IMG/VR virus record: IMGVR_UViG_3300020442_003192
Coordinates: 1-20,922 of that record
Length of the DNA stretch: 20,922 bases
Strand: one strand, 5' to 3'
Source of the DNA: a virus
The position numbers and the translations under genes are program-made. The notes beneath the pieces are model-generated. The model did no database searches. It saw only the letters and a list, made by a program, of their open reading frames with translations, and was not told the DNA's origin. The stretch's first letter is position 1; every line of letters starts with the position of its first letter. Positions 4,420 to 20,922 of this stretch are shown here, one piece after another.

Positions 4420-5514
4420 ATGAAAAAAGCTATCATTTTTGGTGTCACCGGTCAAGACGGAAGCCATCTAGCTGATTTGCTGCTACTCAAAGATTATTTA
4501 GTGCTAGGAGTAGCTAGAAGAACTAGCACCGACAATACAAACAGAATTAAACATCTCGAAGAGAATCCAAATTTTCGATTAATTCAAGGAGATATCACTG
4601 ACTCCTTCAGTATTTTAAGAATCCTAACAGAACACGCAGACGTAGATGAAATCTACAATCTAGCAGCTCAATCTCATGTCGCTGTATCATTTAAGCAACC
4701 TGCTTTGACTTGGGACATTACAGGCAAAGGGTGTCTTAATATCCTTCAGAGCATCGTTGATCTTAAAATGGACAACGTAAAGTTTTACCAAGCAAGCTCT
4801 AGTGAGATGTTTGGTAGAAATTACGACGAGAGAACTTCTGAAGGTGATTTCGACAGCAAGCTACCTGTTGAAAAATATCAAGACGAAGAAACAAAGTTCT
4901 TACCTCAAAGCCCCTATGCGATAGCAAAATGTGCCGCACACCACATGACGAGACTTTTTAGAGAGGGGTACAACGTTCACGCAAGTGCGGGAATCTTGTT
5001 TAATCACGAAGGACCAAGAAGAGGCGAGACATTTGTTACACGTAAAATTACAAAATGGATTGGAGAGTTTGTAGAATGGCTCGAAAATCTAAATATAAAA
5101 CATACTGATATCTCAGAAACCTGCAAGGAAGGCGATTTGTTATTTGCCTCTGGGGTTCAGTACAGTTTTCCAAAGCTGCGTCTAGGTAACTTGGAAGCTT
5201 TTAGAGATTGGGGGTATGCAGGAGATTACGTGGAAGCCATGTGGATGATGCTCCAGCAGGAAAGCCCAGATGATTATGTCATTTGCACTGGTGAAACCCA
5301 TACCATTCGCGAGTTTCTAGACGTAGCATTTAAACATATAGGTATTGACGATTGGTCTGACCTAGTTGTCCAAGATCCAGAATTTTACAGACCTGCCGAA
5401 GTAGATTATCTCAGAGGCTGCAACAGCAAAGCAAAGGAAAAATTAAAGTGGACTCCTGCGAATTCTTTTGAGGATCTTGTTAAAATGATGGTTGATCACG
5501 ACGTAAGAGAATAA
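4420..5514 (+). CDS. gmd: GDP-mannose 4,6-dehydratase
   Basis: Converts GDP-D-mannose to GDP-4-dehydro-6-deoxy-D-mannose in the cytoplasm, the entry step to GDP-fucose, rhamnose and perosamine sugars. The Rossmann NADP-binding motif GVTGQDG is at 8-14. The catalytic set is Ser127 (Thr in E. coli Gmd) and Glu129 in SSSEMFG, with Tyr166 and Lys170 in YAIAK. The substrate segment NHEGPRRGETFVTRKI is at 195-210, and FRDWGYAGDY at 261-270 and FYRPAEVDYL near the C-terminus are family hallmarks. Compared with E. coli Gmd there is extra sequence before the YxxxK helix (about 135-160) and at about 220-252, and a shortened stretch of about 30 residues before FYRPAEV. Good ribosome binding site (AAGGAAGG). 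It is a host-derived metabolic gene sitting inside the packaging operon, probably altering host surface glycans or virion sugars. Confidence 0.95.
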   Translation: MKKAIIFGVTGQDGSHLADLLLLKDYLVLGVARRTSTDNTNRIKHLEENPNFRLIQGDITDSFSILRILTEHADVDEIYNLAAQSHVAVSFKQPALTWDITGKGCLNILQSIVDLKMDNVKFYQASSSEMFGRNYDERTSEGDFDSKLPVEKYQDEETKFLPQSPYAIAKCAAHHMTRLFREGYNVHASAGILFNHEGPRRGETFVTRKITKWIGEFVEWLENLNIKHTDISETCKEGDLLFASGVQYSFPKLRLGNLEAFRDWGYAGDYVEAMWMMLQQESPDDYVICTGETHTIREFLDVAFKHIGIDDWSDLVVQDPEFYRPAEVDYLRGCNSKAKEKLKWTPANSFEDLVKMMVDHDVRE

Positions 5515-6028: not shown

Positions 6029-6512
6029 GTCAAAACCGTTTACAATAATAAAAGATACAAGAGAGCAGGATGGCTATTCTTTTGCCGCGAGTTCCTCAAG
6101 ATATCATACTTGCAATGGAATGATATCAAGAAAGCTTGACACGGGCGACTATAGCATAGAAGGTCTTGAAGACAAACTTTGCATAGAAAGAAAAGCTAGC
6201 GTTGTTGAATTTGCAAACAATGTTGGTCATGATCAGGTTAGGTTTCTCAAAGAAATAGAAAGGATGAAAGATTTTCCTTATAAGTTTCTAGTCTTTGAGT
6301 TTTCGTTAACAGATCTTATGAACTTCCCTGAAGGTTCAAGTATCCCCGAATCGGATTGGGGTAAACTTAGAGTAACGAATAAGTTTATGTTAAAAATGAT
6401 AATGGAATTTCAGTTGCACCACGATATAAAAGTATTGTTCTGCGACTCGAAGAAAAATGCTAAGTGGGCAGTTTTGAGTATAATTAAGAGAGTCAATGAA
6501 ATCCTCCAGTGA
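6021..6512 (+). CDS. ERCC4-fold nuclease
   Basis: A 163-residue nuclease with the ERCC4/XPF core: IIKDTREQ at 9-16 (Asp12, Arg14, Glu15), LDTGDYSIEG at 39-48 (Asp43), and CIERKAS at 54-60 (Glu56, Arg57, Lys58). This is the metal-binding ERK motif of the family. No HhH2 tandem domain or helicase is attached, as in other short phage members. Such enzymes cut branched or flapped DNA. Here it may process replication or recombination intermediates before packaging. Start is GTG at 6021, overlapping the HNH gene by eight bases in another frame; no ATG is nearby. It forms a nuclease pair with the HNH gene. Confidence 0.88.
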   Translation: MAKSKPFTIIKDTREQDGYSFAASSSRYHTCNGMISRKLDTGDYSIEGLEDKLCIERKASVVEFANNVGHDQVRFLKEIERMKDFPYKFLVFEFSLTDLMNFPEGSSIPESDWGKLRVTNKFMLKMIMEFQLHHDIKVLFCDSKKNAKWAVLSIIKRVNEILQ

Positions 6513-7167
6513 GAAAAATATGAATATTGATATTATCTCAGACGTACACAGCTATGGGCTGGATGTAAAGAACAGAGAAATATACCTTCATAGTTACATA
6601 GCGAACTCAGATGAAGATCCCGGTGTCGATTACAAGATGGCGGCTAATTTTTATAAAAACATAAGATTATTAGACGCTACAAATAAAGATCCAATACTAA
6701 TACACATGCACAGTATTGGAGGTAATTGGAATGACGGAATGACAATCTTTGACGCTATACAGCTATGCACTTCGTATGTAACGATAATCGCTTACGGACA
6801 AGCAGAGTCTATGAGTAGTATTGTCTTGCAAGCTGCGGACAAAAGGGTGATGATGCCAAACGCTTATTTTATGGCACACTTTGGTTCCAGTGGATACTCT
6901 GGTAATTACTTGGATGTACAGAAAGGTGCGGCCTTTGAAAAAGTACAAACAGATATAATGCTAGATGTGTATACCGACGCCTGTTGCGAGGGCAAATACT
7001 TTAAAGAGAAGTATACAGATCCAACACAAGAGAAGGTTAAGAACTATCTAAAAAGAAAATTAAAAGATGGAGACTGGTATCTTGACGCAAACGAAGCTGT
7101 TTACTATGGGTTTGCTGACGCGGTCCTCTCCACAAGAAAATACCCATCAATAGGTAGTCTAAAATGA
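6496..7167 (+). CDS. ClpP-like serine protease, possible head maturation
   Basis: Resembles ClpP/S14-type proteases. HMHSIGGNWNDGMTIFDAIQ at 70-89 matches the ClpP S-x-G-G substrate-binding strand. GQAESMSS at 101-108 carries the nucleophile Ser105 in A-x-S-M. FMAHFGSSG at 125-133 gives His128. DGDWYLDANEAVYYGFAD at 191-208 gives Asp193 in the ClpP R-D-x-F/Y-L position. The full Ser-His-Asp triad is therefore present. ClpP-like proteins encoded next to the terminase or portal often process phage proheads. This phage also has a separate prohead protease at 11292, so this one may act on another target. Start at 6496 overlaps the nuclease gene by 17 bases; an ATG at 6520 is an alternative. Confidence 0.85.
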   Translation: MKSSSEKNMNIDIISDVHSYGLDVKNREIYLHSYIANSDEDPGVDYKMAANFYKNIRLLDATNKDPILIHMHSIGGNWNDGMTIFDAIQLCTSYVTIIAYGQAESMSSIVLQAADKRVMMPNAYFMAHFGSSGYSGNYLDVQKGAAFEKVQTDIMLDVYTDACCEGKYFKEKYTDPTQEKVKNYLKRKLKDGDWYLDANEAVYYGFADAVLSTRKYPSIGSLK

Positions 7168-13356: not shown

Positions 13357-14364
13357 ATGTCATACACAGAAAGACCTAGTGATGAATTCATCACTCTTCT
13401 GAAGAAATCTGGCGATAGCGACCAGAATGTAGCTTACGCTGCACAACGTGAGTTCGCTAAAGCATTAGAACTTCCTTTACGTAAGGGTGTTCTTCTTGGA
13501 AATATCCTCGGAGATATTTTTGAGCAGATTAATGTCGAACCCGGAGCTTCAACCGAGTATCCGCTCGACTTAATTTCTCCCGGACTTGAAGGTGAGCACG
13601 TCGCCTATACTAATCCGGGTCATGGTCGCGTTCCTGAACGAGCAGTCGAAGGCGATTATGTCATGATCCCAACCTACAGCATCACAAGTAGCATCGACTA
13701 CTTGCTTCGTTATGCTCGTGAGGCTCGTTGGGATATTGTTGGTCGTGCAATGCAGGTGCTGGAAGCTGGTTTCGTCAAGAAGATGAACGACGACGGATGG
13801 CACACTCTATTGGCCGCAGGTGTTGACCGCAACATCTTGGTCTACGATGGAGACGCAACGGCTGGCATGTTTAGCAAGCGACTTGTTTCGCTTATGCAGA
13901 CCACTATGCGTAGAAACGCTGGTGGAAATACTGGCTCTGCTAATAGAGGTCGATTGACCGATCTTTATGTCTCGCCAGAAGCGTTGGAAGACGTTCGTAA
14001 CTGGGGTCTAGATCAGGTTGACGAAGTAACTCGTCGCGAGATCTACACTGCTAGTGAGGGCGGTGCTCCTATCACCAGAATCTTTGGTGTTAACCTTCAC
14101 GACCTAGACGAACTTGGCGAAGGTCAAGAATATCAGACGTTCTTCACGGACGGTCTTGGTGGTGCAGTTCAGTCTTCTGACGTAGAGCTTGTTGTTGGTA
14201 TTGATCAATCTGCCAACGATAGCTTTATCATGCCTATGAAGCAGGCAGTTCAAGTCTTTGAAGATCCTACCCTTCACAGACAGCAACGTGCTGGCTACTA
14301 TGGCTTTGCAGAGCTTGGTTTTGGTGTCTTGGACAACAGAAGAATCATTTTAGGTTCATTCTAA
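13357..14364 (+). CDS. Major capsid protein, HK97-like
   Basis: The shell-forming protein, 335 residues, the usual length of a HK97-fold capsid protein after processing. It begins MSYTERPSDEFITLLKKSGD and has a long helix region (DIVGRAMQVLEAGFVKKMND) matching the spine helix. A further segment (NRGRLTDLYVSPEALEDVRN) is the P-domain strand-helix typical of these proteins. The C-terminus (GYYGFAELGFGVLDNRRIIL) is also family-like. Perfect AAAGGAG upstream. It is followed by a strong terminator, and it has the highest share of CGN arginine codons among the large genes, consistent with heavy expression. The N-terminal segment upstream of the fold may be the target of the protease at 11292. Confidence 0.88.
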   Translation: MSYTERPSDEFITLLKKSGDSDQNVAYAAQREFAKALELPLRKGVLLGNILGDIFEQINVEPGASTEYPLDLISPGLEGEHVAYTNPGHGRVPERAVEGDYVMIPTYSITSSIDYLLRYAREARWDIVGRAMQVLEAGFVKKMNDDGWHTLLAAGVDRNILVYDGDATAGMFSKRLVSLMQTTMRRNAGGNTGSANRGRLTDLYVSPEALEDVRNWGLDQVDEVTRREIYTASEGGAPITRIFGVNLHDLDELGEGQEYQTFFTDGLGGAVQSSDVELVVGIDQSANDSFIMPMKQAVQVFEDPTLHRQQRAGYYGFAELGFGVLDNRRIILGSF

Positions 14365-14485: not shown

Positions 14486-14968
14486 ATGGCTTCTTTATCA
14501 GATTACTTAGAATCTGGTCTTCTACACCATGTTTTTAGAGGGCAGGACTTTCCAAAGCCCCTAAATGTGGCGGTCGCTTTATGCAGTGGTGTACCTAAAG
14601 ATTCAGACACTGGATCTACAATTCCAGAATTACCCAGTGGTGACTCACAAAATAGAAATACTGGGTATGCAAGGGTTAACCTTGGAAGACCCTCAGATGA
14701 GGGTAATAACAAATGGACTTATGATCAGGACGATCACGATGCAGGAAGCGGTATTATAAAAAACAAGGTAGGTTTCACTTTTGATGAAGGGGCTGGTAGT
14801 GCAGCCTTGGTAGACTGGGGATGGGTATCTGGCGTTGCTATTGTTGACTCCGGTGAATACGGAACTGGCAACTTACTTATGTTTGCTCAATTGGAAAATC
14901 CAAGAATTATTTACACCGGCGATACTGTCAAGTTTGACACATCGACGCTACAAATTAGCTTCGACTAA
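14486..14968 (+). CDS. Tail-associated virion structural protein (160 aa)
   Basis: Begins MASLSDYLESGLLHHVFRGQ and contains LNVAVALCSGVP, NTGYARVNLGRPSDE, VDWGWVSGVAIVDSGEYGTG and NPRIIYTGDTVKFDTSTLQI. This matches the pattern of a small virion protein seen in many aquatic phages (L-S-D-Y-L-E near the start, a Val-Ala-Leu strand, G-Y-A-R, a W-G-x-V strand, then G-N-L-L and a G-D loop before the end). It is beta-rich throughout. In those phages it is reported as a structural protein associated with fibres or the tail; the exact role is not known to me. AGGAG lies seven bases before the ATG. First gene of the fibre transcription unit. Confidence 0.7.
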   Translation: MASLSDYLESGLLHHVFRGQDFPKPLNVAVALCSGVPKDSDTGSTIPELPSGDSQNRNTGYARVNLGRPSDEGNNKWTYDQDDHDAGSGIIKNKVGFTFDEGAGSAALVDWGWVSGVAIVDSGEYGTGNLLMFAQLENPRIIYTGDTVKFDTSTLQISFD

Positions 14969-14985: not shown

Positions 14986-17900
14986 ATGATACTCTCCAAA
15001 TCTGAGTTCCTTGCAAAAATCGAGGATCTTCTACAAGATAATTCTACACAGTTAATATCACCTCTTGACGTTAGAACCAGCCTTATAGACCTAGCTGATT
15101 CTGTGCATTTACTGCTGGACGGGAATAGTGTTGTAAGTGCCAACTTTGCCTCCCCAGAAACCAGAACAACCAGAGCTGGGGATTTAGCTCTAAGTAAATT
15201 AAAATATCAGGGCAGAACAAGTGTAGATAACTCTGCTTTTGGGTATTATGCTCTTGGTGCAAATTTTGATGGTGCTCAAAACACTGCTATTGGCTCACAC
15301 TCACTAAGCTGTAATCTTCATGGAACATACAACACCGCTGTTGGTTTTAATAGTTCCGCCGGAAATACTACCGGTTCTGGAAATGTAAGCTTAGGCTCTT
15401 TTGGCTTACAGTCTTTGAGGACAGGTTCTTTTAATATAGCAATTGGTCACGGTGCTGGAAACAGAATAGGCAAAGATGCTGAATTCAAGTTTTATCTTGG
15501 TGTAGACCCTATTGATAGCGGAATGGATTGCCAGTCCATGTCAGAAGCTTCTGGTGCAACACCCCTTCTTTTTGGCGACCTAAAAGACTTAAAACTAGGT
15601 GTTGCAACACACCAAGAACTTCATAATTACGGTGTATTGCAGGTCTCAGGAGACATCTCTCCTTCGCACGCTAAAAACTTTAACGTAGGTAACGCAAACT
15701 ACCCTTGGGCGTCCTTCAATGAAGTTATCCATTTCTCTGGGGAACATGTTTCTATCAACACACCAGCTCCATCTGGTGAAGGCAAAGTTACTGTAAGTGG
15801 AAATATTGTACCTTCAGAAAATGGCAAGTTCTCCCTAGGTTGGGCTGACGGAACAGAAAACGGTGAAAAGTTGTTATGGGATGGTTTCTTTAATGACATG
15901 ACCGTAAGCGGAAGCTTTAATTGTAACGATATAAATATTAATGAAGTAAACTTATGCACCTACGACTGTAAGACTTTACACTTAGCAACTAGCGGCGTTT
16001 GTGACTCAGAAATAGGTTTTCATAACGATGCTTTTTGTGGATTTTTGTCTGACGAGTCTCTTGATGGTGCTGGGTTTGTAACACACTCCAGCGGGTCAGA
16101 CTACAGAAGAAATTACCATTTTGTCTACAGATCTCCAGATCCAGATCTTACCTGCCTAGAGGTGGATTCTCACTATGCCAGATCTAGATGGGAATCTAAT
16201 ATTTCCATCCAGATTGAATCTGGAAAACATCTACAAACGGATAGGGTTCTTGGTGACAGTACCCTTTCTATGGTAACCCAAAGCGGATGCTACGGATTAT
16301 TTATAGAGCCTAGCGGTCACGATCCCCACAACCCCTCTGGTAATCACGGTTTTGCTACAAGACAAAATATATTTAAGCAAAATCTACCAACGAAAAAAGA
16401 CTTCAACTTTGTTGCTCAATCAGGCACACACATTGGTACTGATGGCAATCCGTCAGGCTATGACTACACTTTGTTGACCGGAACTGTCGATTCAGGCGTT
16501 AAAGTTGCTCATGAATTTACCAGCAGAATGAAATCAGTGAGTGCCTCCAGAGGATTCAGTATCGTTTACTACGATGATTATGATAAGGTTTATAAAATTG
16601 GAACACCTCCACCTGATCCTCCAGCAGGTCCGGGCGGTGGAACCGACTTTGGTAACCTGTACCTTGTTGGTCAGGTGCCTATAACACGGCTAAACCCTGT
16701 TGGTAAGGGATCTAGTGTTGCAATGAACTTGAACGGTAATACTGTGGTCTACACGCACAATTTTGAATCCTATGATGACATCAATGTAGATGATGGTCAT
16801 AGCTTTACCGTAGAAGTTAGTAAAATAAGGCCTGAATTTAAAGATTCCACTAGAACGATTTCAGCTCCCTATACCCCTTTAACGAGCACGTACAAGGGGT
16901 TTGGTTCTGATTTATCACTTTCTTCTGATGGCTTATATTTAGCTGTTGGTACGCTAGACAAGCGATTCCTCGTATATAGCAGATCCGATACAAACTTCAA
17001 CTTCTTTGCACGAGCCAACATAGAACGTACTGCGGGGACAGAATACGCCTTTGGATCTACTGTGGAAATATCACCACTATCTTTCTTAAACCTAAGCTAT
17101 GGCTATTTCATTGCAGCCTCATCTCCATATAGAGACGTTGCTGGTGCTCCAGACGGCGGAGGCGTGTATTTATACACAGAATCTTTTGGAGGTATTTGGA
17201 CCCTCAGAGGCGGCAACGTCAAACAAATGAGAGGTAGAAGCAGAAATGACAGACTTGGAATTTCCAAGAACGGTATGTCAATTGGTAGTCGTGGTATAGA
17301 CCTCGCCGTTGGTGCCCCAATGGGCAAAAATGCAGACACACTGTTTGACTCGTATGACTCTGCTACTGGAGAAGTAAAATCAGGTTTAACAGAGCAAAAA
17401 GTAGGAACAAATGACAACGAGTACTTTGACAATGGGTATGTGGTTGTTGGTGATATATACAATTACTTCGATCTTAACTTTGTGCGAAATTCCGAACAAT
17501 ACGAAAAACACAGGTCTTATTTAGAGTGTCCAAGAAAAGACACTCTTGCCACAGAGCCTGCCAATAGAAAAACTGAGTTTGGATATTCTGTTCATCTTGG
17601 TCAAGACAAAGATGCTCCTGTTGTAAATCAAGATCAACTTGGATATGCTCAATACTTAGTTGTGGGTGCACCAAACGTAAGACCGGCTAGCAATGAAAGA
17701 AGCCAAGTTTGCACTGGAATGGTTTTTGTTTATAAGAAAAGCAGTGCTGCTCCGCTCTACCCCAAACACCATTACGGTGTAGGCGGAGGTGCAGATGTCC
17801 GGCAGAGAGTTGATTGGGAGTTGCTTGCTACTATCGCACCGACCTATGAGAATGTAGGCTTCACACCTTGGAGGTTTGGCCATGATGTATTTATTACACA

Positions 17901-18252
17901 CGACGGAAAAACCGTGGTAGTATCGTCTCCCGGATACGGCCAAGAAAACGGAAATGTTAGTGGTAAGCTATGGGTTTACACTTACAACACCGCAACAGAA
18001 AGTTACGATTTATCGTCTGCTATAAGGGGAACCAACGTTGACGGAAAAGCTTCTACTGCGTACCCTGAATTTGCAAACCTATCTGTTGCAGAGGACATAA
18101 GTGTTTCTCACGATGTTGGATATATATTGGCTGGCTGTCCAAAAACAAAAGCAACGGAGAACATTACTGACTCCAACGGTTATATACTCTATGAAGCTGA
18201 CGTAGACACTGGGCACGTCCAACTTTATTCACCAAACAACGTTATTGATTAG
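14986..18252 (+). CDS. Fibre/adhesin with beta-roll shaft and FG-GAP propeller
   Basis: A 1088-residue modular protein. Residues 1-50 (KIEDLLQDNSTQLISPLDVR) resemble the virion-attachment end of long phage fibres. Residues about 78-158 are YadA-like beta-roll repeats: NTAIGSHSL, NTAVGFNSS, NVSLGSFGL, NIAIGHGAG. A beta-rich shaft with SGD/SGN turns follows to about 535. A Pro/Gly linker (GTPPPDPPAGPGGG) at about 539-553 leads to a C-terminal half built of about seven repeats of the FG-GAP type. These have F-G-x-x-[VL] strands (FGSDLSLS, FGSTVEIS, FGYSVHLG, FGHDVFIT) each followed by a [VA]-V-G-A-P-like strand (LAVGT, IAASSP, LAVGAP, VVGAP, VVSSP, LAGCP). That is an integrin-like beta-propeller. 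It most likely forms the receptor-binding part; the ligand is unknown. Confidence 0.85.
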   Translation: MILSKSEFLAKIEDLLQDNSTQLISPLDVRTSLIDLADSVHLLLDGNSVVSANFASPETRTTRAGDLALSKLKYQGRTSVDNSAFGYYALGANFDGAQNTAIGSHSLSCNLHGTYNTAVGFNSSAGNTTGSGNVSLGSFGLQSLRTGSFNIAIGHGAGNRIGKDAEFKFYLGVDPIDSGMDCQSMSEASGATPLLFGDLKDLKLGVATHQELHNYGVLQVSGDISPSHAKNFNVGNANYPWASFNEVIHFSGEHVSINTPAPSGEGKVTVSGNIVPSENGKFSLGWADGTENGEKLLWDGFFNDMTVSGSFNCNDININEVNLCTYDCKTLHLATSGVCDSEIGFHNDAFCGFLSDESLDGAGFVTHSSGSDYRRNYHFVYRSPDPDLTCLEVDSHYARSRWESNISIQIESGKHLQTDRVLGDSTLSMVTQSGCYGLFIEPSGHDPHNPSGNHGFATRQNIFKQNLPTKKDFNFVAQSGTHIGTDGNPSGYDYTLLTGTVDSGVKVAHEFTSRMKSVSASRGFSIVYYDDYDKVYKIGTPPPDPPAGPGGGTDFGNLYLVGQVPITRLNPVGKGSSVAMNLNGNTVVYTHNFESYDDINVDDGHSFTVEVSKIRPEFKDSTRTISAPYTPLTSTYKGFGSDLSLSSDGLYLAVGTLDKRFLVYSRSDTNFNFFARANIERTAGTEYAFGSTVEISPLSFLNLSYGYFIAASSPYRDVAGAPDGGGVYLYTESFGGIWTLRGGNVKQMRGRSRNDRLGISKNGMSIGSRGIDLAVGAPMGKNADTLFDSYDSATGEVKSGLTEQKVGTNDNEYFDNGYVVVGDIYNYFDLNFVRNSEQYEKHRSYLECPRKDTLATEPANRKTEFGYSVHLGQDKDAPVVNQDQLGYAQYLVVGAPNVRPASNERSQVCTGMVFVYKKSSAAPLYPKHHYGVGGGADVRQRVDWELLATIAPTYENVGFTPWRFGHDVFITHDGKTVVVSSPGYGQENGNVSGKLWVYTYNTATESYDLSSAIRGTNVDGKASTAYPEFANLSVAEDISVSHDVGYILAGCPKTKATENITDSNGYILYEADVDTGHVQLYSPNNVID

Positions 18253-18263
18253 AGGAAATATAA

Positions 18264-20922
18264 ATGACAGATAGATTATCAATAAACGTAAATAACGGTC
18301 AAGACAAGGTTTTTGAAGCGTTTACTGTTTCAAGAAAGGGTGGCACAGTAAGCGAATCAGGGCTTGTTGGCATAACAAATATAACAAGAGAAGATCACCA
18401 AAGACCCATAGTCCCAGAAACAATCTTTAATGTCCAGTCTTCACTTGAGTCTAACATTAGATTTTCTTCACACGCTATTGCGAGAAGTAATCTTGAACTT
18501 ATCGCAAACGGCAATGTAAGAGCATCCGGCCTACATATCTCATATAATCCATCCCTTGACAATTCGCAGTTAAATGACGAATACGGCGGTGGTGCAGCAG
18601 ATCTTCCAGTCATCGACTTTTCTCACATAGAACCAAGCGGAACAGAAGGGTCTGAGTTTGGATTCTTGTCAGCAACCGAACAGGGCAACATAGGTATTGG
18701 CTTAACAAAAACTAGACATGGAACCAATGAGGTCAGAAAGTTTACAATAACAGACCCCTTAACCATATCTAATGGCAACTTTGGTCAGGCCGGTAATAGC
18801 GGCACTATATCTATAAAATCACAAACCGTCAATCCGGGCAACACTCTTAATTTTGGCAAAATTTTTGTCAAGCCGTTTGATGGAGGTTCTTTCCAGACAG
18901 AAATGCCCTATTTCTTAGATGGTGCTGGCAATCTCTTCACGCTAATAAACAGTAAATTAAACTCAGAGTCTGTGTATACAGATGGCTTTGGGAACACCTT
19001 TGCTGGCGAATACACACCAAAAGACAGGCAGATCGGATCTCACTTTCCTACCACATCAGCCAAGCGTGATAATACTTTTTTTGGCGAAGGTGCGGGCCAC
19101 ACAGCCGACACCGCAGAAGCGGCGAAGAACAACACTTTTATAGGCTCTAATGCGGGTAGTGGTATTGGTAAAAGCGAAGACGGTTTCGGTACGGCAAACA
19201 CTGTTATCGGTGCAAAATCCTTCAATAATGCACAAGGCGGAAATAATATTGTTATTGGGTTTAGAAGCCTATCAGATATTAACTTGCCTCCAGAGGAAGA
19301 GCCAGACAATTACACTGATTATATTATTATCGGTAATGATATAAGAACTCCTGAAACTAAGCTTCAAATAGGAAACTATATTTATGGTATTAATGGGAGT
19401 AGTCGTAACATTACTACTGGCAAACCGACAGTTTTCACAAAAGGCCATATCGGGGTAAAAGACTCAAACCTACAAACCTTGATAAGTCACGGAAATAGAG
19501 GCACCAGAAACGTATCTCAAATTGTGTCTCAAAACTTTGATGCAGCATTAACAAATCCAGATATTTTCACCTTTGATTTTTTAAACTCTACCAATAAAAG
19601 CCAAACGCTCTTTGAACTTGACCCAAGCGGCAATATCCCCAATGCTTCACCCACCTTTGCATCGCCAACTTTTGCCACACCGTTCGTTGGTGTTAGTGGC
19701 GACATAAGACTAGTCGGAGGTATAAGATTTAGCGACGGCACGTTTATGAACACCAACCCAATTGTTGGGCAGGCCAACTTGGGCGGATCAGGCATCTCAA
19801 GAACACAATCGGGACAAACATATAGCTTCCATTTAGATTTCACATCTCTTAAAGAAGCTACTACATACAAAGATCCTATTGATGTAAATAACGCGTTTCT
19901 TGCACTTCAGGTAAATGATGATACCTCTATAGACAAGATGTCAAAGATAAAGATGCAAGATCTTGCTGGTTATCTCGGTAGCAACCAAGCTGCCTTCCAG
20001 ACAAATTGTAATGCGTACTTTACTAATAATAATAATGCTATTGATAAAGACAAGAATAAAAATTCTGTATTTATAGGCTGTGACGTTGCGGTCGGGGCTA
20101 CCGGCTGGAAGTCTTCTGTTATAATTGGTAATGAAGCTGGCTATGGTTCAACAATACCAAACGTTAGTCTTGAAACAGATACGGCTGCTGTTTACATTGG
20201 ATACAGAGCCGCTTATCAAGCTATCAATTGTGACAACGCTGTTTTTGTAGGATCTAATGCTGGTAGAGATGCAGACTCGTCAGAGCACTCCATATTCATA
20301 GGTTCTAGTGCGGGTGAGTACGCGAATAATCCAAACTCTATTGGTATTGGACGCTTCGCACTTCACGGGCAGTCATCTGTAGACGAGCAAGGCTCTAACA
20401 ATATAGAGATAGTTGCTGGGCTTAACGACTCGCAAAGATTGCTTTACCAAAAATCAGACATGTCTAATAGGCTAAATATTCAAAACACTATAGCCGCAGA
20501 TACTAAGACTAGAACTGTCTCAATCGGAGATGCCAGATTATCCTCATCATCCACAGAAACAAAACCTTTAGACGCTGTTCTAGAGGTAAGATGGCACGAT
20601 AATGTGGCAAGTGATTCAGACCATCGGCACACTAACTATGTTCAGAGCTGGCACGCAAACGATACCCACATCGGAGCTGTTACGGCCTCTGGCCATTTAG
20701 TCACCAATGTAAAGGGCTGGAATGAAAGCTCTTCATCTCCTGACTGCTGGTTTGGAAACCTTGAAGGAGTTATTCAAGACACGATTGCCGCTCCTTCAAA
20801 CCATAATTCTTCAAACACGGGCACTATGAGGGTCTTTAAGGTTGACCAATCAACAGGGACTCGCACACTTCTCAGCGATACAGTAAAAGTTGTAAATAGA
20901 AACCCTTCGATGAGTTTGGCTG
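18264..20922 (+). CDS. Second long tail fibre, C-terminus outside window
   Basis: ATG at 18264 with AGAGGAAA upstream opens a frame with no stop to the window edge: 886 complete codons plus one base. It begins MTDRLSINVNNGQDKVFEAF. Two blocks of YadA-like beta-roll repeats are visible: about 269-328 (NTFFGEGAG, NTFIGSNAG, NTVIGAKSF, NIVIGFRSL) and about 599-697 (NSVFIGCDV, AVYIGYRAAY, AVFVGSNAG, SIFIGSSAG, NSIGIGRFAL). Between are beta-rich segments with GDIRLVGGIRFSDGT, a common shaft turn. Such repeats form trimeric left-handed beta-rolls in adhesins. It is 11 bases after the preceding fibre gene and shares its repeat type, so the two probably arose by duplication or module exchange. No propeller is seen in the visible part. 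Confidence 0.88.
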   Translation, partial: MTDRLSINVNNGQDKVFEAFTVSRKGGTVSESGLVGITNITREDHQRPIVPETIFNVQSSLESNIRFSSHAIARSNLELIANGNVRASGLHISYNPSLDNSQLNDEYGGGAADLPVIDFSHIEPSGTEGSEFGFLSATEQGNIGIGLTKTRHGTNEVRKFTITDPLTISNGNFGQAGNSGTISIKSQTVNPGNTLNFGKIFVKPFDGGSFQTEMPYFLDGAGNLFTLINSKLNSESVYTDGFGNTFAGEYTPKDRQIGSHFPTTSAKRDNTFFGEGAGHTADTAEAAKNNTFIGSNAGSGIGKSEDGFGTANTVIGAKSFNNAQGGNNIVIGFRSLSDINLPPEEEPDNYTDYIIIGNDIRTPETKLQIGNYIYGINGSSRNITTGKPTVFTKGHIGVKDSNLQTLISHGNRGTRNVSQIVSQNFDAALTNPDIFTFDFLNSTNKSQTLFELDPSGNIPNASPTFASPTFATPFVGVSGDIRLVGGIRFSDGTFMNTNPIVGQANLGGSGISRTQSGQTYSFHLDFTSLKEATTYKDPIDVNNAFLALQVNDDTSIDKMSKIKMQDLAGYLGSNQAAFQTNCNAYFTNNNNAIDKDKNKNSVFIGCDVAVGATGWKSSVIIGNEAGYGSTIPNVSLETDTAAVYIGYRAAYQAINCDNAVFVGSNAGRDADSSEHSIFIGSSAGEYANNPNSIGIGRFALHGQSSVDEQGSNNIEIVAGLNDSQRLLYQKSDMSNRLNIQNTIAADTKTRTVSIGDARLSSSSTETKPLDAVLEVRWHDNVASDSDHRHTNYVQSWHANDTHIGAVTASGHLVTNVKGWNESSSSPDCWFGNLEGVIQDTIAAPSNHNSSNTGTMRVFKVDQSTGTRTLLSDTVKVVNRNPSMSLA

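Follow-up and report, generated by a model that had tools for sequence, protein, structure and literature searches.

Beta-propellers have been described on several phage receptor-binding proteins, including those of phi11, PhiKZ (gp131C) and PRD1 (P2) (PMC4901313). The propellers of the phi11 protein lie in a platform in the middle of the fiber and provide a precedent for a propeller in that position (PMC4901313), and the exchange of modules between phage fibers is well documented (PMC10684548). Propellers of the FG-GAP type were described in a 2024 study of an alga virus as nearly unknown in viruses (PMC11467894). Annotated phages with FG-GAP proteins were few in our comparisons, namely, Vibrio phage nt-1, cyanophage S-TIM66, and one uncultured phage in which the FG-GAP gene comes after the tail genes.

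The window analyzed here is an entire contig (20,922 bases) of an uncultured virus of bacteria. It encodes a terminase (Pfam and PHROG matches), a portal candidate (weak PHROG match), a cement/decoration protein, and two long fiber-type genes, the second of which is truncated at the contig end. The major capsid protein (13357-14364) was named through its match to the major head protein of Bacillus phage G, which was its sole match among phage records, at 21% identity. At least 599 relatives of this capsid protein were present in the virus collection, and these matches indicate that the lineage is widespread and abundant, with no close isolate in the collection searched. Among the head genes, candidates for a GDP-mannose dehydratase and a ClpP-like protease were noted by eye at positions 4420-5514 and 6496-7167.

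The first fiber reading frame (14986-18252, plus strand) encodes 1,088 amino acids (Table 1). A C-terminal module (residues 556 to 1088) shares this open frame with the conserved shaft and is thus a covalent part of the fiber protein. We infer that the protein is carried on the virion because its gene lies between the capsid genes and the next fiber gene and because PHROG tail-spike and virion families match shaft residues 61 to 160. The first-pass annotation had described an FG-GAP propeller joined to a fiber shaft by a Pro/Gly linker; the linker (TPPPDPPAGPGGG) was located at 16603-16641. The start assigned to the module at that time, 16600, has to be moved slightly upstream: the shaft ends at about residue 533 (window position ~16587), and linker and module together begin near 16588.

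TABLE 1 Features of the fiber locus (positions in the window)
Feature	Positions	Strand	Basis
Gp80-like small structural protein, directly 5' of the fiber gene	14486..14968	+	Pfam PF23140 'Podophage GP4 fiber I protein gp80', E 4.3e-22; phrog_240 head protein
Fiber shaft, residues 1-534; YadA-like beta-roll repeats near N terminus; end RGFSIVYxDxxDK	14986..16587	+	19-row alignment with relatives ending here
Junction and Pro/Gly linker (VYKIGTPPPDPPAGPGGGTDFG)	16588..16653	+	Translation; nearest relatives lack it
N-terminal strand (LYLVGQVPITRLN region), predicted to close blade 7 (velcro)	16654..16704	+	Aligned to N-terminal strand D of FG-GAP_2 propellers (E-INS-i); AlphaFold strand E18-22
Blade 1, weakest by sequence	16705..16899	+	Alignment, AlphaFold model; leave-one-out not significant
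Blade 2 (FGSDLSLSSDGLYLAVG...)	16900..17049	+	Blade model, alignment, AlphaFold model, leave-one-out
Blade 3 (FGSTVEIS...FIAASSPYRD...GGVYLYTE)	17050..17253	+	Blade model, alignment, AlphaFold model, leave-one-out
Blade 4, long loop between strands 2 and 3 (IDLAVGAPMG...)	17254..17577	+	Blade model, alignment, AlphaFold model, leave-one-out
Blade 5 (FGYSVHLG...YLVVGAPN...GMVFVYKK)	17578..17874	+	hhalign/L148 comparison, alignment, AlphaFold model, leave-one-out
Blade 6 (FGHDVFITHDGKTVVVSSPG...GKLWVYTYN)	17875..18084	+	Blade model, L148 comparison, alignment, AlphaFold model, leave-one-out
Blade 7, three strands, predicted to be completed by N-terminal strand	18085..18249	+	Blade model, alignment, AlphaFold model, leave-one-out
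Stop TAG overlapping AGAGGAA ribosome-binding site, then ATG of next fiber gene	18250..18266	+	Unextended relatives share this site and start
Second fiber half, open at contig end; directly fused to shaft in other relatives	18264..20921	+	blastp to L002, L020, L016 and C-terminal parts of L076, L013, L035, L037

Repeats, homology and predicted fold of the module

The translation of 16600-18249 contains seven repeats of the form FG-x-x-V ... VGAP ... GxVxVY, which start at its residues G37, G102, G152, G220, G328, G427 and ~497 (the blade starts in Table 1). A blade model built only from a protein of a related phage that Pfam recognizes as FG-GAP_2 found seven in-order places in the module, with a total of 10.1 bits compared with 7.7 bits for the best of 1,000 shuffles. 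A seven-blade profile derived from 38 phage and bacterial propeller proteins scored 37.0 bits on the module, 6.1 bits on the best of 1,000 shuffles, and 2.0 bits on the shaft of the same protein. The roughly seven FG-x-x-V/VGAP repeats that had been noticed in the C-terminal half were therefore recovered by both models, at scores above those expected by chance. When each blade was searched for with a model of the other six, blades 2 to 7 were all recognized (0 to 9 of 500 shuffles did equally well). Blade 1 was not (114 of 500), and its assignment therefore rests on the alignment and the structural model.

The E-INS-i alignment mode, which tolerates long insertions, brought 34 of the 38 propellers into the register proposed for the seven blades. 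With the default mode of MAFFT, many subsets gave another register that skipped blade 1 and split blade 4. An eight-blade or shifted register was set aside in favor of the seven-blade register because E-INS-i finds the latter unprompted, the closing strand matches, and the strands of the structural model agree with it.

The best match to the module by hhalign was a propeller from a related contig (L148; E 1.1e-5), with ~31% identity over two blades. The Pfam models of FG-GAP_2 (PF14312) gave no match to the module by hmmscan at an E value of ≤1 or by direct search at an E value of ≤10, and the integrin FG-GAP family (PF01839) had no match to it in the Pfam scan. Weak Pfam matches of the whole fiber protein to Toxin_3 and a phage p2 neck protein fell below the cutoff and were disregarded. 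As judged from these comparisons, the module is a strongly diverged relative of FG-GAP_2 that is not filed as a Pfam member. The DxDxDG calcium motif, searched for as the pattern D.[DN].[DN]G, was absent from the module, which therefore lacks the calcium sites seen in integrin propellers. The description "integrin-like" given by the first-pass annotation thus holds for the fold, for which the top Foldseek matches in the PDB were to integrin alphaIIb (E 3.8e-10), but not for the motif or for the nearest sequences, which are FG-GAP_2 proteins.

An alignment-based AlphaFold model of the module (pTM, 0.77; mean pLDDT, 66; core strands mostly 70 to 91) contained 28 strands, arranged as seven sets of four in which the N-terminal strand closes the last set. 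Single-sequence AlphaFold, run without an alignment, gave an unusable model (pLDDT, 29). The alignment rows were propellers picked so that the alignment made by the tool kept the seven-blade register, because default MAFFT often favors another one; the model is therefore not independent of the homology claim. In a viral library, the best matches were giant-virus FG-GAP repeat proteins and one from an uncultured phage annotated as 'FG-GAP repeat', and VIA-align gave a Z score of ~29 over ~300 residues to solved seven-bladed propellers such as G-beta. The module is thus predicted, from a register-selected alignment, to fold as a closed seven-bladed beta-propeller with velcro closure, the topology that had been expected from the repeats.

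Direct searches of phages, viral contigs, bacterial and archaeal genomes, PDB sequences, PHROGs and NCBIfam found no close relatives of the module; two of these searches used exact peptide patterns, which distant copies would escape. Whether modules of this kind occur elsewhere had been raised as a question, and such propellers were found in proteins of bacteria as well as on further proteins of viruses. Nine further contigs of the lineage encode FG-GAP_2 propellers two or three genes downstream of the shaft. These are up to 59% identical to proteins from Bacteroidota, including Saprospiraceae, and similar propellers are present in SAR92/Porticoccaceae, Verrucomicrobiota and Planctomycetes. 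The genes concerned are long and lie past the fiber pair (L017:15915-20315, L102:10296-12245, L140:10413-13583, L148:10393-13686, and others). These matches show, at the level of sequence, that phages and bacteria share such propellers, although this sharing gives no identification of the host. The matches of the downstream genes may reflect an exchange between phages and the surface proteins of bacteria. An origin of the module from the downstream propeller gene of the lineage was considered and is unsupported, the closest such gene being that of L148, with the two-blade similarity given above. In L002:15922-18279, L005:11117-13015 and L016:11868-15239, the same downstream gene has sub-threshold Hint/intein-like matches near the N terminus, and its products are possibly self-processing fiber proteins.

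The split point in related fibers

The shaft is 50 to 65% identical across relatives, and its nearest relatives (66%) carry no extension. In most relatives the shaft protein stops at residues aligned to residue 533 of the window protein, and 56 of the 79 distinct shafts with complete ends stop within 40 amino acids of the shaft end. In other relatives the chain runs unbroken from the shaft into a homolog of the next gene of the window. Since about 55 relatives stop where the module begins and others are fused there, the position of the propeller coincides with the split point of a two-part fiber. At the DNA level, relatives read '...GAT GTA TAA AGAGGAA...ATG...AAAGATAGATTATCA' and the window reads '...GAT AAG [module] ATT GAT TAG AGGAAATATAA ATG ACAGATAGATTATCA', so that the module directly follows the final codons of the shaft and directly precedes the stop codon with its ribosome-binding site.

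Two other relatives carry extensions at the same point, each behind a low-complexity linker: L031 has three Big_12 Ig-like stretches there, and L014 has a region rich in Thr and Cys. The three extensions are mutually unrelated. When 82 shafts were placed on a tree, those with extensions occupied three different supported clades and were surrounded by unextended relatives in each, which means that the extensions were gained separately. The presence of nothing, of an Ig-like domain or of a Thr/Cys-rich domain at the same point in relatives also bears out the earlier suggestion that the module is exchangeable in evolution. The tree was rooted at the midpoint only, and with this root it could be that the fused state of the fiber is derived rather than ancestral.

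The GC content of the module resembles that of its neighbors (0.417/0.436/0.418), as does its third-position GC, and a recent transfer judged by composition is thus unsupported. No RNA features were found, and no repeats or mobile-element marks at the edges of the module. Among the second fiber halves of relatives, a dockerin-like repeat (GDFNNDGVVDAADYTIW...) was seen by eye at about residues 595 to 650 of a fused protein (L013:10663-14397), for which Pfam reports none. The second half is ~600 residues longer than usual in L113:7595-12103, L123:7622-12085 and L127:6682-11235; a Pfam scan of those of L113 and L123 found no domain.

Possible roles of the propeller and comparison with known systems

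We propose, with a probability of about 0.6, that the module is a seven-bladed FG-GAP_2-related propeller that acts as an accessory adhesion domain at the mid-fiber joint of a fiber made of two polypeptides. The propeller would have been gained as a discrete module at the C terminus of the first polypeptide, and the two polypeptides together would build one virion fiber in which their junction is internal. From this joint the propeller would project sideways on its flexible Pro/Gly linker, and a trimeric fiber, as is usual for such fibers, would carry three propellers per joint. The propeller would most likely bind a glycan or protein of the host surface (or of the surroundings), with primary contact made by other parts of the fiber or by other fiber genes.

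The first-pass annotation had placed the propeller at the fiber tip. If the first polypeptide were a fiber of its own, the propeller could form its distal, specificity-determining end, since it is C terminal, the usual site of receptor-binding domains. The second half stays a separate gene in the window with its own ribosome-binding site, and PMC4901313 cites a C-terminal seven-bladed propeller of PhiKZ gp131 at the baseplate periphery. However, unsplit homologs continue from the same residue into the homolog of the next gene and so place the junction within a longer chain, which makes a side position at the joint more likely than the far tip. Most split relatives also have no domain there, and a receptor-binding tip at this site can therefore not be obligatory. 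We therefore regard a tip head as the strongest alternative but an unlikely one.

Beta-propellers are common platforms for protein-protein interaction, and the location of this one exactly at the split point would also suit a structural coupling in which it replaces the lost covalent link, holds the second polypeptide or stiffens the joint. About 55 split relatives do without a propeller, however, two others have unrelated domains at the same point, and a flexible Pro/Gly linker fits such a role poorly; we consider coupling improbable. Still less credible is an enzymatic propeller, for instance a glycoside hydrolase or lyase acting to trim the polysaccharide of the host. Propellers are frequent among glycan-active enzymes, and the propeller of the phi11 receptor-binding protein superposes on an enzyme (PMC4901313), but the nearest relatives of the module are FG-GAP_2 repeats rather than an enzyme family, and Pfam, NCBIfam and PDB sequence searches gave no match to any enzyme. 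A chimeric assembly joining an unrelated propeller gene to the shaft is the least probable explanation: the exact fusion is present in one contig only and the virus collection yielded no relative of the propeller, yet the frame is open through 1,088 codons, the ribosome-binding site and start of the next gene are kept right behind the stop codon, the base composition matches, and two independent relatives have the same kind of insertion in the same place.

The accessory adhesion domain at the joint suggests a concrete route by which fibers may gain surface-binding parts: in at least three separate lines, ready-made domains have entered at one gene boundary within the fiber. Should the propeller indeed lie at the joint, modules on the side of the fiber may contribute to host attachment alongside the tips in this widespread uncultured lineage, which has at least 599 related contigs. 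FG-GAP propellers, moreover, are present in several phage groups, including on genes adjoining structural modules. A broader proposal, which we advance tentatively and consider more doubtful than the role of this one module, is that the gap in the split fiber serves generally as a docking site, with unrelated adhesion domains (propeller, Ig-like and Thr/Cys-rich) being gained and lost there. The surfaces to which these abundant uncultured marine phages adhere might then be tuned by modules mounted on the side of the joint rather than by the tip, and the lineage might also trade FG-GAP propellers with bacterial surface proteins.

Among known systems, the module shares most with the seven-blade FG-GAP_2 repeat proteins that occur in marine Bacteroidota, giant viruses and phages. 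In those compared (the gene two downstream of the shaft in L017, Vibrio phage nt-1, the 'FG-GAP repeat' protein of uncultured Caudovirales LR797314 and the 'virion structural protein' of cyanophage S-TIM66), the order of strands, the seven repeats and the N-terminal closing strand are the same as in the module, and the FG...GAP motifs are in register with it. The window copy differs from them in its ~19 to 28% identity in the alignment, its long loops, its score below the Pfam threshold, and its joining to a fiber shaft at the split point. The integrin alpha propeller has the same seven-bladed fold, but the module lacks the calcium motifs and the adjacent integrin-family domains. PhiKZ gp131C (PDB 4GBF, as cited in PMC4901313), for which a role in binding is suspected but unproven, is likewise a C-terminal seven-bladed propeller on a phage baseplate-periphery fiber protein; it had no sequence match in the PDB search, and it lies at the end of a single protein, whereas the module lies at a split joint. 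In the phi11 platform, as in our proposal, propellers lie midway along a trimeric fiber with further fiber beyond them, but they have five blades, belong to a different family and are part of a single polypeptide (PMC4901313). Fiber mosaicism likewise exchanges C-terminal modules on a conserved N-terminal part (PMC10684548), but the exchange point in the window is the gene split of a fiber that was formerly, or is elsewhere, continuous. What appears to be new is the presence of a very divergent FG-GAP type on a fiber shaft and its exact placement at a split point that unrelated domains also use.
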